Positions 20,301 to 27,067 of a stretch of DNA of 64,000 bases are shown piece by piece. The position numbers were made by a program, and so were the translations under genes. How positions within the stretch are numbered: the first letter of the stretch is position 1; each line of letters starts with the position of its first letter. Source of the DNA: Symbiotaphrina buchneri (taxonomy: Eukaryota > Ascomycota > Symbiotaphrinales > Symbiotaphrinaceae). The notes under the pieces are model-generated. The model was not told the DNA's origin. It worked only from the letters and a program-made list of their open reading frames with translations, and ran no database searches. The stretch lies in assembly GCA_001599915.1 (NCBI GenBank), contig BCIG01000019.1, positions 558,001-622,000 of the forward strand, given 5' to 3'.

Positions 20301-21797
20301 AGCCCTCTGCCCTCACCATCACCCTCAACCACTCCCGCCCCGCGAAAAACCAATCACGACACTACTCCCAATGGAAAAGTGCAGTAGCAGTATAAATGCG
20401 GGAGAGCAGGCAGACGTGGTATCAAGAGTTGAGTGAAGCCAAAAGATCGGTGATCGACGGTGATTTATGCCGTTGTCGATCTCCCGCAAAAAAAATGACG
20501 ACACGGCAATCACAAATCTCTTTCGCACCCGTCCAGTTTCAACAGAGCACAGAAAGTCTATCCTCACTCTTATCACAAATGCAGGATCTCTTTCTTTCCA
20601 ACAACTTCATTCTCCAAAGTTTCAAAAGGATCCAGAAACCTCGAGCGGGAGATGGCAATGGTGCTGACCAAACGCCATCAGCTCGAAAACATTCCCATCA
20701 TCCCATGTTGTCATCCCTGGCTAATGCCCAGCCTAGCGGCTTCGGTGCATTGCCGCCCGGCGATCATGATTGGAGCTTGGCCCCGCGAAGAGGATATTGT
20801 TGCCTCAAGCGGGATAGTCGCCCTTTGAAATCTCCCTCGAGTTGCCTGATTGGGATGCATACAAGTCCATAATTGTACTCCACGGAGTGGTTTCCACATG
20901 GACGGGCGAAAACTTCCGGATGTTCAGAAATTGTCCTTAGAGCTTGCAGCATGAGTTCAGGAGTTCCTGAGGGACAAAGGCCGGATAGCTGACCCACCGA
21001 GCTTGGTGGAACTGCCACGGAGGGACGCAAGAAGTTCAATAAACATGGAGGCCTGCAGCCATGGAAATGCTGATAATAAATTAAACCCGGTATATATATC
21101 ACAATCTCAGATATTTCAATCAGATACGACCACAGGCAATGGAATACGACGCATCCCGTCCGCTCTGCTGAATCTAAGCCATTGACCGACTCGTCAGTAC
21201 TAAGGTCGGGGACGACTTGGGAATCCGGGTTGTTGTATCTTTTTGTCTTTTTTTTTTACTTTTTCACAGACGAGAGTTATGTTTTTGATTTGGGCTGTTA
21301 GACAATGACACAAGTGTAATTGAGTTATTCTTGAGTCAGGCAGACGTGTCATATGCACGGGAAAGTTCCCAGACAATGTTCTTATATGGTGATTTTTCCG
21401 GCCCATGAAGAAGTTGGAAGCTGACTAACTTTTTAAGGTCCTGAATCCAGCATTTGCCTCCTCAAGCTGGGACTGCGCGACTCATGATGACTTGCTTGAG
21501 TATTATTATTATGTGTATGCGCATAAATCGTCTATCGTTCTGTTTGACTCACTCCAAATCGAAATAATCTGGTTGGCCGCCACCGCCGGCAAAGTCTCCA
21601 ACTAACCGATAGCTAAGATAGGCAGTTCCACACGATAGCTTAGATAGCCCCGCCGCCACACGCCCTTCCAAGAACTCATTCTAGATCCCATGGCATAAAG
21701 ATCCACAACCCAGTGCCCGCCATTACAGCACAAAGCCCAGGGCACGCAGGCAAGACCGACAGGGTCTCTCTCCAATTGCCCTAAAAGACGAGCAGCA
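20301..21797. other. Gene-free stretch of 1.5 kb
   Basis: No recognisable gene. Open frames up to about 158 codons (20396..20872) lack motifs and resemble random frames. A poly-T run occurs near 21245 and a short (tat)n run near 21500. It lies between the SCOT fragment and the PaiB-like gene and may be the remainder of the rearranged segment. Confidence 0.45.
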
Positions 21798-22688
21798 ATG
21801 TACCTCCGCGCCGCACACGCCGACTTGCACATCCCAACCCTAGGGGCCTTCATCCGCGCCAACCCCCTAGGCGTGCTAACCACGGCGATTCCGTCCGCAA
21901 ACTACCCACTGCTGCAATCCAGCCACATCCCGTGGATCCTCGATCTCGCGGATGAAGATGACGACGCCGAGCTGGGCGTGCTGCGCGGCCATATGGCGCG
22001 GGCGAATCCGCAGGTTAAGGCCATGATCGAATCTGTCTCCTCCTGCTCCTCCTTATCGGGCGCAAATGCGTCCACCGACCCAGCAGCAGCATCAGCATCA
22101 GCAAACGGCAGCGGTGGCAGCGAGCTCGACCAAGAAGTGCTGGTCCTCTTCACCGCACCAGCACATCACTACGTGACGCCCAAGTTCTACACTCAGACAA
22201 AACCCTCGACGGGCAAAGTCGTTCCAACATGGGACTACGCCGCGGTGCAAGCCTACGGGCGACTCACGATCCACCACGCCAACACCCCCAGCACATCCTC
22301 CTTCCTCGACACCGCCGTCGCGGACCTAACGCGCTTCGCCGAGGAGGATATCATGGCGCATACGGGCTGCGCGGGCGCGCCGCGGGCCTGGGAGGTCGGG
22401 GATGCGCCCGAGAGTTATGTAAGCTTGTTGAAGAGGGGTATTGTGGGTGTGACGGTGAGGATTGAGAGGCTGCAGGGGAAGTTTAAGATGAGCCAGGAAC
22501 TGGCGCTGGGGGATCGGAGGGGCGTGATTGAGGGCTTTGAGCGGATGGGGACGGAGTTGGGCAGGGAGATGGCGCGGTGTGTCAGGGCAAGGGGGAAGGT
22601 GAGTGATCGTGCGAAGGAGGCGGCGAAGGAGGCGGCGAAGGAGGCGGTAAATGGGGCGTCAAAGGAGGACGCGGTAAAGGCGTCGTAG
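21798..22688 (+). CDS. PaiB-like FMN-binding split-barrel protein
   Basis: Single-exon protein of 296 aa related to bacterial PaiB (the FMN-binding 'transcriptional regulator' family), which folds as a flavin-binding split barrel; most fungal members have no proven function. Family landmarks: 'MYLRAAHA' start, 'NPLGVLTT', 'SHIPWIL', 'LRGHMARANPQ', 'FTAPAHHYVTPKFY', and 'KVVPTWDYAAVQAYG'. 'FKMSQ' near the end is also typical. Two features are unusual. A Ser/Ala/Gly-rich insertion occupies about residues 80-110. After about residue 270 there is a Lys/Ala/Glu tail made by a 12-bp tandem repeat (22612..22660) that looks like a LEA-type helix. Flavin use is inferred from the family. Confidence 0.85.
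   Translation: MYLRAAHADLHIPTLGAFIRANPLGVLTTAIPSANYPLLQSSHIPWILDLADEDDDAELGVLRGHMARANPQVKAMIESVSSCSSLSGANASTDPAAASASANGSGGSELDQEVLVLFTAPAHHYVTPKFYTQTKPSTGKVVPTWDYAAVQAYGRLTIHHANTPSTSSFLDTAVADLTRFAEEDIMAHTGCAGAPRAWEVGDAPESYVSLLKRGIVGVTVRIERLQGKFKMSQELALGDRRGVIEGFERMGTELGREMARCVRARGKVSDRAKEAAKEAAKEAVNGASKEDAVKAS
22612..22660 (+). repeat. 12-bp coding tandem repeat in the PaiB-like gene
   Basis: About three to four copies of 'gcgaaggaggcg' encode AKEA units at the C-terminus of the PaiB-like protein. Such repeats change copy number easily, so length variation between strains is expected. Confidence 0.7.
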
Positions 22689-23176
22689 GAGGAAGAAAAT
22701 GCGGATGTCGTGTTGAGGGCGTGCGTGCGTGTACGGCGATGCTCGGCCAGTCCTAAGGTACGATGGTGTTGGCAGCCTCCTGTTTTGCTGCAGTTGTCTG
22801 CATTTGTCTGCAGTTGCACCGGGACAGAGCACATTAGGGATGGGAAGAGTCGGAGACGATATCAAGCAATGATTGTTAAGAAGATATATTATTATCTATA
22901 TATATGAAGATCTACACAACGATCTGCGATCTGATAAAGAGTGAATATGGCGGCCATCTCGCCCAACGCCAAGCCCGAAGAACCGTACGATGAATTCGGG
23001 CGGCGTTTCCCGTCGGGAATAATAATCACGCAGCAGGTCCCCGATGCCAAAATTCCGATCATATTCACAATTCTGACTCCGAATACCATACGATATATCA
23101 TCTCCTACATATCACACCCGCAACCGCCCTTCTCTTGCATGGGCATCTAGCCAGCTTTCCACCAACCTTACCCCCA
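22689..23176. other. Intergenic, promoter of the D-amino-acid oxidase
   Basis: 488 bp; contains an AT-rich 'tatattattatctatatatatg' stretch near 22885 (22 bp described by position only) and no supportable gene. Confidence 0.4.
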
Positions 23177-24638
23177 ATGCCAGCCCCAACATTCATCATC
23201 CTCGGCGGGGGCGTGATCGGGCTCACCACCGCGCTCCAGCTGTCCACCAGCCACCCCTCCAGCCGAATCATCCTGCTCGCACGGGACCTGCCCGGCGACC
23301 GCACAATCGGGTACACATCGCCCTGGGCAGGCGCCAACTGGCTGAGCGTCGCAACCGACAACGGCCCCCAGGAAGCCTGGGACACAGTGACGTACGCGCG
23401 GTTCGCGGAGCTGGCGGCGCGCGTGCCGGAAGCCGGCGTGCAGGCGCTGCCGATCCGCGCCGTGTTTGATAACCCGCTTCCCGAGGCGGGTGTGCTGAGT
23501 CGTGGCACTGGGAAGATCTGGTATGAGGGCCTGACGGGGCTGCGGTTCTTGGAGAGGGAGGACTTGCCGAAGGGGGCGGAGTTTGCGTTTGAGGCGCGCA
23601 GTTTTGTGGTGAATACTCAGATGTACCTGCCGTGGTGAGTTCTTGCTGTTTTTTTGATTGCTGTAGCAGGGGCTTTTTGGTTTTGAGGTGGGAAGAAGGG
23701 TGTTGATGTGTGTTGCGACACCGAACAGGCTGCAGATCCAGGCCGTCAAAGCGGGCGTGGAGATCCGGCGGAAGATCGTCGACGACATCCGAGACTTATT
23801 CAGGGAATTCCCCACCGCGGCCGCGTTCTTCAACTGCACCGGTCTGGGCTCCTACGCGCTGAAAGGCGTCGAGGACAAGAACCTGTACCCGACACGAGTG
23901 CGTTTCCCCCTCTCCCTCCCCTTCCCCTATCTTCCCCTCCACTTTCCCACCTCTATCTTCCCCATCAACCACGCTCCCGCAAGTCCTAACCTGTCCCTCC
24001 GTTTTCTCCGCGCAGGGGCAAATCATGCTCGTCGAATCCCCTTCAACTCCCATGAAGCGGATGTACTTCCGCTCGCCACGGCGCGTCGACAACGACACGA
24101 CGTACGTGTTCCCGCGCAACCCGTTCGGCGGCGTCGTGCTGGGCGGGTGCCGGCTGGACAATGTCTGGGACGGCGAGGCGGACCTGGAGATGGCGGAGGA
24201 TATTAAGCGCAGGTGCTGTGCGCTGGCGCCGGAACTGGGCCGCCCCGAGGATTTGAAGGTGCTTTATCATGGCGTGGGGCTGAGACGTGAGTTGATGCTC
24301 TTCTCTTGTGCTGCTTTTCTTTTTGTTTTGGGTTCTCTTGTGGAACCCAGCACCTAGATGCGAGGAGAGGAAGCGCATGGCTGATACTGATACTCTGCAG
24401 CGAGTCGGAAAGGTGGTCCGAGGATTGAAAAGGAGCTCATAGATGGCTTCACGATGGTGCATAATTACGGCGCCAGCGGGGCAGGGTATCAAGCATCGTG
24501 GTATGTGACATCTTTGAACGACTCTTGACGAAGATGGGCCTTACCGACGAGTGTTTGGCTAACTTCAACAATAATAGGGGCATGGCCAAAGCCGCGGTTG
24601 ATTTATGGTCTGGTCCGAATACTACTTCCCGGTTATAG
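23177..24638 (+). CDS. D-amino-acid oxidase, peroxisomal (C-terminal SRL)
   Basis: FAD enzyme that oxidises D-amino acids to imino acids and H2O2; the imino acid then hydrolyses to a 2-oxo acid and ammonia. Five exons: 23177..23634, 23729..23897, 24016..24286, 24401..24500, 24578..24638, giving 352 aa. The dinucleotide-binding motif 'ILGGGVIG' is at residues 8-15. 'YTSPWAGANW' is the conserved FAD-contact segment. Near the C-terminus 'HNYGASGAGYQASWGMA' is the family signature with its conserved His, rebuilt across the last intron. The final residues SRL form a type 1 peroxisomal targeting signal. It converges with the RidA-amine oxidase, 304 bp between the stop codons. Confidence 0.93.
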
Positions 24639-24942: not shown

Positions 24943-27067
24943 TCACAACCTCGCCACCCCTCCCCTCCCCATTGCAGCCAAAACCTCCTCCGCAGCCCTC
25001 TCACCACTACGCACCGCGCCCTCCATATATCCTCTCCAAACCAAACTGGTCTCCGTGCCCGCAAAATGCAAATTCCCCACGGGCCTGGCTAACTCATCCG
25101 CGAACTCCAGCACGCCGCCCTTGCCATCCTTGCCCGGGCCAAACACCGGGCACGGACAGCCCTGGGACCACTCGTCCGCGACCCAATTATGGAACACGAA
25201 ATCCACGGGGTTCTTCGCCAGCTGCTCCACCTCCTTCCTGACACGCTCATACTCCTCAGACCCCGGAGACGACGCCACCGCCGCCGCGCACGCCGGTCCA
25301 AAAATACCCGCCATCTGCGCCAGCACGCTCTCGCGCCTTGCCTGCTCGGGGAGCTTAACCCAGCGCCGCCCGGGCTCGCCGACCGCGAAGCACGTCAGCG
25401 CGAACTGCCCGTCTTCATCGACAGAGGTATCGCGCAGGACGCTGATCGGGCCACGGGCGTCCTGCGCCAGGCCGCAGAGACCATATGCGCGCCACCACGG
25501 GCGCGTGTAGGTTAGGAGCACTTTGGTCACGGTGCCGAGCTTGGTGGCGCGTGCTAGAGCGGCCTTTTTTGGGGGAAGAGGGGGCGAGAAGGTTAGCCAG
25601 GTCAGCGAGGGAGTGGGCACGCTGATGATGCAGCGGGAGGCGGTGAACGTGCTTGGAGAGGCGGATTTGGTGGTCAGCGTTACGCCCCGAGAGGAGTGCG
25701 TGATGGAGGCGACGGGCGTGGAGAGTAGGACGGTCGAGGGTTTGAGTGCGCCGGCGAGGCGTTTGGAGAATTCTTGGGTTCCTACGACGCAGCGGGTTAT
25801 TAGTCTCCACGTCCCCACCCATCCATGCCGTGGGAAGGCGCAAAACTTACCAAACTTAATGCGCAGATACTGGCCACCATGTTCTCTATCACCACGCATA
25901 GTCAACAAGCTGCCGCCCGCACGGCAGTACCAGAGGAAGAAGAGCGCCGAGACCTCGTGCGGCTCGAAGCCCAGCATGGCGCGCGTCCACACGCTGATGG
26001 TGTCGAGCGCGGTGCGCCCGAAGCCGTTGCGCTTCACCCACTGCTCCACTGTCTCGCTATCGTACTGCAGCGTCTCCTCCATCGTTGGCGCTACGGGCCG
26101 GTGCCCGTCGAGCCCCACGCAGATCCGCTCGAAGAGGTCACGCATTGCTACTACTTCTTCTTTCTCGCCGGGTGGGTACTACAGGCGCGTCAGTCAGCGT
26201 ATGTCGGATTCGTGCCGTGCCAGAGTGCACCAGCAGCAGCAGGAGGAGGAGGAGAGGTATTCTAGGGGCAAAAGAACGTACAGGGGCGTTAGTCCCGTAT
26301 GCGAACCTCTTGATGCTGCCATCCGTATCCGCCAGGATCGCATCGCCATCAGTATTCTGCTTGACGACCTCAAGCCCGAACCGCCGTACCATCGAGTACA
26401 TCCTACTCTGATTGCTATCATTGATCCACGCCGCACCCACATCCACGCGATGTTTCCCCGGCGTGCTGACGCTCCACGTCTTGCCCCCAACCCGGTCTCG
26501 CGCTTCCAGCACCAGCACTTTCAGGCCCGCCTCTTGCAGTTGGCGCGCCGCTTCCAGACCCGAGAGTCCCGCGCCGACAATCAGCACATCCACATCCGTC
26601 TGAGCCGGTATCTCGCCCATCACCGCCTCTGGCTGACCCGCGAGCGCAGCTTTTTCCTCAGCAGCAGCGCCCACGATAGCCGTCGCCTCAATCTCAAACA
26701 AGAACTGCTCCTTCGCCAACTTCGGCACGGGGACGAGCGTCGTGCACGGGCGGTGGCCGTCCAGGAACTTCAGGAGGTATTTCACATGCGGCTGCGTGCC
26801 CTGGCGCGCCGCCTCGTAGCCCACAATGTAGTACGTCAGCTTGACGATGTCCTTCGGCCCCGCCCCCGCCGCCGCCAGGCATTTCCGCAGGTTCTGCAGG
26901 GCCAGCACGATCTGGTCTTCGTAGCCGACGGGCGTGTACCCGTGCTCGTCGATGGCCACTTGCCCTGCGGTGAAGATCAGCCCGTTGGAGGTTTTGGCGG
27001 CGTGCGAGTACAGTGGTTTGGAGGAGGGCACGCCCGTGGGGTCGAGCGTGGTGATGGAGGGAGCCAT
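24943..27067 (-). CDS. RidA domain fused to flavin monoamine oxidase, peroxisomal (C-terminal ARL)
   Basis: Two activities in one 650-aa protein. Exons: 27067..26282, 26178..25851, 25781..24943. Residues 1-135 are a complete RidA/YjgF domain. 'FTAGQVAID' is the family core, and R106 in 'HRPCTT' aligns with the Arg that catalyses imine hydrolysis in RidA. 'FEIEATA' is the closing strand. Residues 158-650 are a flavin amine oxidase: 'VGAGLSGLEAARQ' and 'EARDRVGGKTWS' for FAD, 'HNWVADEWSQGCPCP', and 'FAGTETS' near the end. A Cys in that segment is near the position of the flavin-linked Cys of mammalian MAO, but covalent linkage is uncertain. The final ARL is a type 1 peroxisomal signal, as in fungal MAO-N. 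The oxidase makes imine plus H2O2 and the RidA part can hydrolyse the imine. Domain order and peroxisomal location match that job. Confidence 0.92.

Follow-up and report, generated by a model that had tools for sequence, protein, structure and literature searches.

The locus described here raises the question of what a Rid domain does when it is joined, in one polypeptide, to a flavin amine oxidase. The window, a stretch of 64,000 nucleotides of Symbiotaphrina buchneri DNA (contig BCIG01000019.1, positions 558,001 to 622,000), contains at 24943-27067 a single minus-strand gene whose three exons, separated by two GT..AG introns, give an open reading frame of 650 aa ending in VARL. Exon 1 (26282..27067, minus strand, with a GT donor at 26281) encodes residues 1-262 and thus spans the entire Rid domain, the linker and the beginning of the FAD-binding fold. 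It is followed on the same strand by intron 1 (26179..26281; 103 bp, GTACGT..GTAG), exon 2 (25851..26178), intron 2 (25782..25850; 69 bp, GTAAGT..GTAG) and exon 3 with the stop codon (24943..25781). When the 650-aa product was searched against Pfam, both expected domains were found. Ribonuc_L-PSP (PF01042) covers residues 19-132 (26672..27013, minus strand; E 8.5e-19) with 68.2 bits against a cut-off of 27.3, and structure matches agree with a Rid fold. Amino_oxidase (PF01593) covers residues 168-639 (24979..26566, minus strand, split by both introns; E 2.5e-66, 225 bits). Because exon 1 runs without interruption from the Rid domain across the linker into the beginning of the FAD-binding region, these are two domains and not two genes. 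The fusion of a Rid domain to a monoamine oxidase (MAO)-type enzyme is genuine and lies in one gene, and the first-pass annotation, which had read the two domains as a single 650-aa polypeptide, was right in this respect. We also note an in-frame Met150 (26618-26620, minus strand) about 10 residues upstream of the FAD-binding motif, from which an isoform with the oxidase alone might be translated. A D-amino-acid-oxidase-like gene (window 23160-24500, plus strand; PF01266, E 5.6e-7, in the frame of its first exon) lies tail to tail with the fused gene and represents another imine-forming flavin oxidase type. Beside this D-amino-acid-oxidase-like gene is an FMN_bind_2 protein (PF04299, E 3.8e-46; window 21699-22688, plus strand) that we take to be PaiB-like.

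The fusion is widespread among the ascomycete sequences found and is not unique to this gene. A protein search returned 1624 matches at E <= 0.001, and 117 of the best 120 carry both domains along most of the protein. A second search, with an unfused paralogue as the query, returned 2542 matches, of which the best 120 were taken. Pooled, and with the window protein and the paralogue counted in, the two sets of 120 give 200 sequences, and among these listed matches 169 are fused, 27 are unfused and 4 are incomplete. The named sources in the first set of 120 include Mollisiaceae, Phialocephala, Talaromyces, Aspergillus, Fusarium, Exophiala, Zymoseptoria, Colletotrichum and Penicillium, which we take to be ascomycete fungi; two rows labeled Quercus suber are the only exceptions among the matches listed. 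Annotators can already see this architecture, as had been surmised from the start, since one of the database names in use for these proteins is "Putative flavin amine oxidase, YjgF/YER057c/UK114 family". It had also been said that no functional description of such a fusion was known, and we found no functional study of a Rid-MAO fusion in the open-licence literature, a body of work that leaves subscription papers mostly outside its coverage. The only paper found there that names both Pfam numbers, PMC4113356, has them on different genes in the sections available.

By sequence comparison with solved chains, the oxidase domain is closest to MAO-A/B and bacterial MAO, and also to putrescine oxidase and cyclohexylamine oxidase. 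A structural model of the nearest homologue likewise matches the MAO-type fold, and both this fold and the FAD-binding motif are present in the domain. C580 (25156..25158, minus strand) aligns with what we take to be the MAO-A/B cysteine that carries covalent FAD, and is kept in 167 of the 169 listed fused proteins; in the 27 listed unfused oxidases this column is Cys in 15 and Ala in 12. Lys458 and the cage tyrosine Y623, whose roles we assume to be those of their MAO counterparts, are also kept. The second cage site, which presumably corresponds to Tyr398 of MAO-B, is Pro581 in all 169 listed fused proteins, and the two-tyrosine aromatic cage of MAO-A/B is thus incomplete. The fused oxidase therefore resembles human MAO-A/B and bacterial MAO in fold, sequence, position of the flavin Cys, Lys458 and Y623, and differs from them in Pro581, in its PTS1-type end and in the added Rid domain. 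MAO-N of A. niger and MAO P3 are fungal amine oxidases too, of which MAO-N presumably also ends in ARL and lacks a Rid domain. We suggest that FAD is probably bound covalently through C580. This is put forward as a prediction because the available part of PMC8538783 states that fungal MAOs, MAO-N and MAO P3 among them, bind FAD non-covalently; contrary to that general statement, many fungal MAOs may bind it covalently.

RidA needs Arg105, numbered Arg107 in animals, for its activity. This residue binds the carboxylate of the substrate (PMC4433059 and PMC7311433, in the parts available), and its replacement by Ala is reported in excerpts of PMC4433059, PMC8113886 and PMC7311433 to nearly abolish activity. 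The first-pass annotation had placed this catalytic Arg at residue 106. We find that canonical Arg105 aligns opposite T109 (26741..26743, minus strand), a Thr three residues past R106, by each of four alignment methods. With phmmer against PDB chains, Arg105 lies opposite T109 in two Arg-bearing chains out of the three printed, while the third and closest printed chain, 5v4f, has Asn at this site. An HMM of 12 Arg-bearing Rid sequences places T109 at Arg105 with the highest posterior class across these columns, hhalign of two profiles does so with 98.8% probability, and MAFFT L-INS-i of 60 Rid sequences gives the same result. The motifs can also be compared directly. Canonical RidA (L101) reads P-A-R-S-C-V-E-V-A-R-L and the fused protein H-R-P-C-T-T-L-V-P-V-P-K-L, and once the prolines are matched, together with the V-x-V-x-[RK]-L strand, Arg105 falls on T109. 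Among the matches listed, the Arg105 column of the MAFFT L-INS-i alignment contains Arg in none of the 169 fused proteins (Thr 54, Ile 49, Ser 28, Met 28, Gln 5, Val 3, Ala 1 and Asn 1). R106 is a conserved Arg, and as the catalytic RidA Arg it is rejected. Loss of the catalytic Arg across homologues, which had been named beforehand, together with loss of imine hydrolysis, as the observation that would speak against a RidA imine hydrolase, is what we see at the level of sequence.

A quick tree of the 60 Rid sequences, built with the Arg column left in, parts 15 Arg-bearing from 45 Arg-less rows in one change (support 88); shuffled labels needed 13.4 changes on average and 0 of 500 shuffles were as low as one. 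The 24 fungal rows form one clade (support 97) inside the Arg-less part of this tree, and ten non-fungal matches placed in the same alignment are also Arg-less. Judged by its sequence, the fused domain groups with Arg-less Rid proteins. Rid subfamilies without the Arg are reported in the available parts of PMC4433059, PMC8113886 and PMC7311433 to have no imine hydrolase activity. The fused domain is like Rid4-Rid7 in that the Glu is kept and the Arg site is variable. Excerpts of PMC4433059 describe the Arg as variable in Rid5 and Rid6 and the site as Trp in Rid4 and Rid7, and unlike the latter two the fused domain does not have Trp there. It further differs from Rid4-Rid7 in being fungal, in being joined to an oxidase and in having a conserved His/Arg set of its own. 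RidA itself also includes proteins that lack the Arg, about 10% of them having Ser in its place (PMC4433059, in part). A separate Rid gene of the host (L089, C31:110600-116600) has, by eye, Trp at the Arg105 site, and its neighbors, also named by eye, are an alpha/beta-hydrolase, an FAD monooxygenase and a homogentisate-dioxygenase-like frame. A YjgF-family gene recurs in a fungal salicylate/3-hydroxyanthranilate pathway cluster according to the portion of PMC7842363 available.

Loss of the Arg probably does not make the domain a relic, because it is as constrained as the oxidase: mean column entropy in the fused set, uncorrected for relatedness, is 1.48 bits for the Rid domain and 1.44 bits for the oxidase. 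The Rid domain looks functional on this measure. The Arg105 site is among its freer positions, ranking 88th of 119 in conservation, whereas four other residues rank near the top. These are E125 (26693..26695, minus strand; 6th), which is the equivalent of RidA Glu120 and is kept in 167 of the 169 listed fused proteins; H105 and R106 (26750..26755, minus strand; 9th and 7th), which lie three to four residues ahead of the Arg105 site and are kept in 165 and 166 of the 169; and H94 (26786..26788, minus strand; 11th), kept in 162 of the 169. Retention of E125 is weak evidence, since the pocket Glu is near-universal in Rid proteins and is kept in 34 of 35 other Rid rows. The two histidines are more particular to the fungal rows: in the Rid alignment all 24 fungal rows and 0 of 35 others have H94, and 23 of 24 versus 6 of 35 have H105, where the 35 exclude the host's C3 RidA, which has His at 105 and not at 94. 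R106 is replaced by Gln and Lys in the stand-alone fungal relatives P0125 and P0126, respectively.

The C-terminal ARL (24946..24954, minus strand), pointed out in the first reading, fits the PTS1-type peroxisomal signal. Among the matches listed, a strict [SAC][KRH][LM] C-terminus is common to 120 of the 169 fused proteins, this one included, and occurs in 11 of the 27 unfused sequences. A peroxisomal location of the fused protein is likely from this signal.

The same genome also contains the two parts as separate genes. On host contig C8 (L100, 2437-7056) there is a stand-alone Rid gene, fragments of which share 48 and 56% identity with the fused Rid domain, and a stand-alone MAO gene that is 44% identical to the fused oxidase. 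The Rid protein ends in SKL and the MAO in SRL, about 2.7 kb separate the two matches, and between the two genes is a 710-residue frame that by eye is Zn2Cys6 regulator-like. This Rid protein is Arg-less too, with T at the Arg105 site, and the MAO has Ala at the column of the flavin Cys of the fused oxidase. In the Rid tree the C8 Rid protein falls among the fused Rid domains (support ~80), and in the oxidase tree the C8 MAO is basal on a long branch; the pair may be either the original arrangement or the outcome of a later separation. The chance of a Rid gene lying within 5 kb of a given MAO is ~0.003 if eight Rid genes are spread over 23.4 Mb, a rough figure for which the gene number was set by hand and one pair was picked after the fact. 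Rid and MAO thus seem to stay linked even when they are separate. Their coupling does not seem to require the tether, and this speaks for cooperation inside the peroxisome and against a chance structural joining.

Our preferred reading, which we hold tentatively and at somewhat less than an even chance, is that the protein is a peroxisomal MAO, its FAD probably covalent, preceded by a re-tooled Arg-less Rid domain that may handle carboxylate-free imines. As expected from its family, the oxidase would convert a primary amine to an imine with release of H2O2, and the Rid domain would probably assemble as a trimer as other Rid proteins do. Its altered pocket, in which the carboxylate-binding Arg105 is gone, E125 is kept and the near-fixed H94, H105 and R106 may take part, would receive a carboxylate-free imine or its product from the oxidase and would either speed hydrolysis of the imine or hold it. 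The re-tooled pocket is favored because imines of the MAO type, which have no carboxylate, and a Rid family without Arg105 fit each other, and the split pair, with PTS1-type ends on both proteins, supports functional coupling of Rid and MAO. The general idea of an oxidase paired with a Rid protein is supported by Chlamydomonas and Gluconacetobacter, where a Rid protein acts with an L-amino acid oxidase or has its gene next to the oxidase gene. Additionally, in bacteria the genes for RidA and for FAD amine oxidases are found clustered, and RidA hydrolyzes imines produced by an amino acid oxidase (PMC4433059, sections available). Several observations count against a catalytic pocket. In the available parts of PMC4433059 and PMC8113886, none of the Arg-less Rid4-7 proteins is shown to have deaminase activity, and the Rid7 protein that was tested did not hydrolyze a leucine-derived imine. 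The imine formed by the fumonisin amine oxidase AnFAO is said in an excerpt of PMC9415688 to hydrolyze spontaneously, so that a catalyst would be less needed. P0125 and P0126 have Gln or Lys in place of R106, and the Rid domain seems dispensable in places because 27 of the 200 listed sequences are unfused and are interspersed with fused ones.

A quite possible rival, nearly equal to the re-tooled pocket, is that the Rid domain is non-catalytic and keeps MAO units together or modulates them, as a trimerizing or scaffolding module or as a small-molecule sensor. H105, R106 and H94 would then form a contact with the oxidase or between Rid subunits. The absence of Arg from the Arg105 column in all 169 listed fused proteins and the reported lack of imine hydrolysis in Arg-less subfamilies are both consistent with such a role. 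So are P107 and G35, which match the UK114 oligomerization positions Pro105 and Gly35, although these are two of the four positions named and the others fare less well, Arg107 being lost and the Tyr21 site only Y/F/H in most rows. The split pair, in turn, keeps Rid beside MAO without a covalent tether, which argues against a purely structural role even though the separate proteins could still form a complex. The pocket Glu conserved in the fused family would point in the same direction, but it is general in Rid proteins.

It is improbable, in our judgment, that the domain is a canonical RidA imine hydrolase in which R106 reaches the Arg105 space from the preceding loop. The conservation of R106 in 166 of the 169 listed fused proteins would suit such an arrangement, as would the bacterial association of RidA with FAD amine oxidase genes and amino acid oxidase imines mentioned above (PMC4433059, in part) and the LAAO/RidA pair of Chlamydomonas (PMC5053998 and PMC10805672, in part). 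This is opposed by the four alignment methods that put Arg105 at T109, by the single tree change that parts Arg from no-Arg rows, and by the Gln and Lys that replace R106 in the two stand-alone relatives. It is also opposed by TIGR00004 (Rid family detoxifying hydrolase), for which the protein scores 36.2 bits and three fused relatives 35.0, 29.2 and 38.2 bits, all below the cut-off of 106.25, whereas the Arg-bearing controls pass, the host's own canonical RidA at 134.3 bits and a bacterial RidA at 182.4 bits. In comparison with RidA/UK114/TdcF, the fused domain thus has Arg105 replaced, the Ser30 site mostly Ala, H94, H105 and R106 near-fixed and a score below the TIGR00004 cut-off; on the counterpart of Asn88 the alignments disagree. 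The RidA imine hydrolase proposed in the first reading cannot be upheld in the established sense of that name.

Far less credible is the view that the oxidase is an amino acid oxidase whose 2-imino acids are hydrolyzed by the Rid domain. RidA chemistry is known for imino acids, and the D-amino-acid-oxidase-like gene at ~23160-24500 (plus strand) adjoins. However, the nearest structures are the MAO, putrescine oxidase and cyclohexylamine oxidase types named above, L-amino acid oxidases score far lower in the sequence search against solved chains, and no L-amino acid oxidase is present among the best 50 matches of the structural-model search made with the nearest homologue's model. The carboxylate-binding Arg is, moreover, missing from the Rid domain. 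That the fusion is an annotation artifact of two adjoining genes or two transcripts can hardly be entertained, for although Met150 right before the oxidase domain could begin a shorter product, the same domain order recurs in 168 other sequences among the matches listed and exon 1 alone, unbroken, crosses the domain junction, which refutes two genes at the DNA level.

Known enzymes offer several points of comparison. The fumonisin oxidase of Exophiala reportedly has a YjgF-like N-terminal extension and is said to have been used, and to be active, in a truncated form; if so, the Rid part would be dispensable for oxidation. Membership of the fumonisin oxidases in the fused family is at this point a lead. 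AnFAO and the Exophiala spinifera enzyme are likened to the fused oxidase by description alone, as fungal MAO-type enzymes that oxidize a primary amine (PMC9415688, in part). LAO1/LAO2 of Chlamydomonas and lao-cccA-ridA of Gluconacetobacter are similar in that a flavin oxidase works with or is encoded beside a Rid protein, and differ in that they are separate polypeptides with L-amino acid oxidases, periplasmic in Chlamydomonas (PMC10805672 and PMC5053998, in the portions available).

Regarding the history of the fusion, a quick tree built from 45 fused, 27 unfused and 8 bacterial oxidases (80 in all) shows fused and unfused rows interspersed, and the fused label requires 10 changes as compared with a shuffled mean of 26.4. 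One early fusion followed by several losses of Rid is the simplest story, and several separate fusions may be an alternative. Incomplete gene models may account for some of the unfused rows, among which P0004 carries the label partial. P0122-P0124, which were counted as stand-alone Rid proteins, sit on short contigs and may be fragments of fused genes. A protein of 877 aa from Phaeomoniella chlamydospora (P0064) has Rid, amine oxidase and PF01070 together, as either a triple fusion or a merged model. In bacteria, no frame with both oxidase and Rid was found in the best 80 of at least 187 confirmed oxidase loci, some of which were matched by the FAD motif alone and some of which have short flanks. 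A Rid ORF lies inside the flank in 3 of these best 80 loci (L038, L041 and L084) as detected with a model derived from the fungal Rid domains and the sequences closest to them, by which distant Rid genes in flanks could be missed. The L084 Rid gene precedes a frame that by eye is methylmalonyl-CoA-mutase-like and not an oxidase. The two Pseudomonas Rid genes, L038 11996-12427 (minus strand) and L041 4100-4525 (plus strand), have by eye Trp at the Arg105 site and are within ~1.5 kb of an amine oxidase frame.

The available part of one family survey calls the function of the Arg-less Rid4-7 proteins completely unknown (PMC4433059), and an excerpt of PMC7311433 states that eukaryotes have only RidA-family members. 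The large fungal family described here ties an Arg-less Rid domain to an imine-making type of enzyme, in fused form and, in this genome, also in split form, and thereby gives a substrate class to test. The question that remains, the role of an Arg-less Rid domain tied to MAO, is a testable one. The presence of R106 does not justify annotating Rid-MAO fusions as imine hydrolases. A broader idea, which we regard as rather unlikely, is that Arg-less Rid represents a second chemistry, in which the carboxylate-binding Arg was given up in order to act on carboxylate-free imines and the fused MAO names the substrate. If this is true, the fused partner would provide a way to learn what Rid4-7 proteins do.
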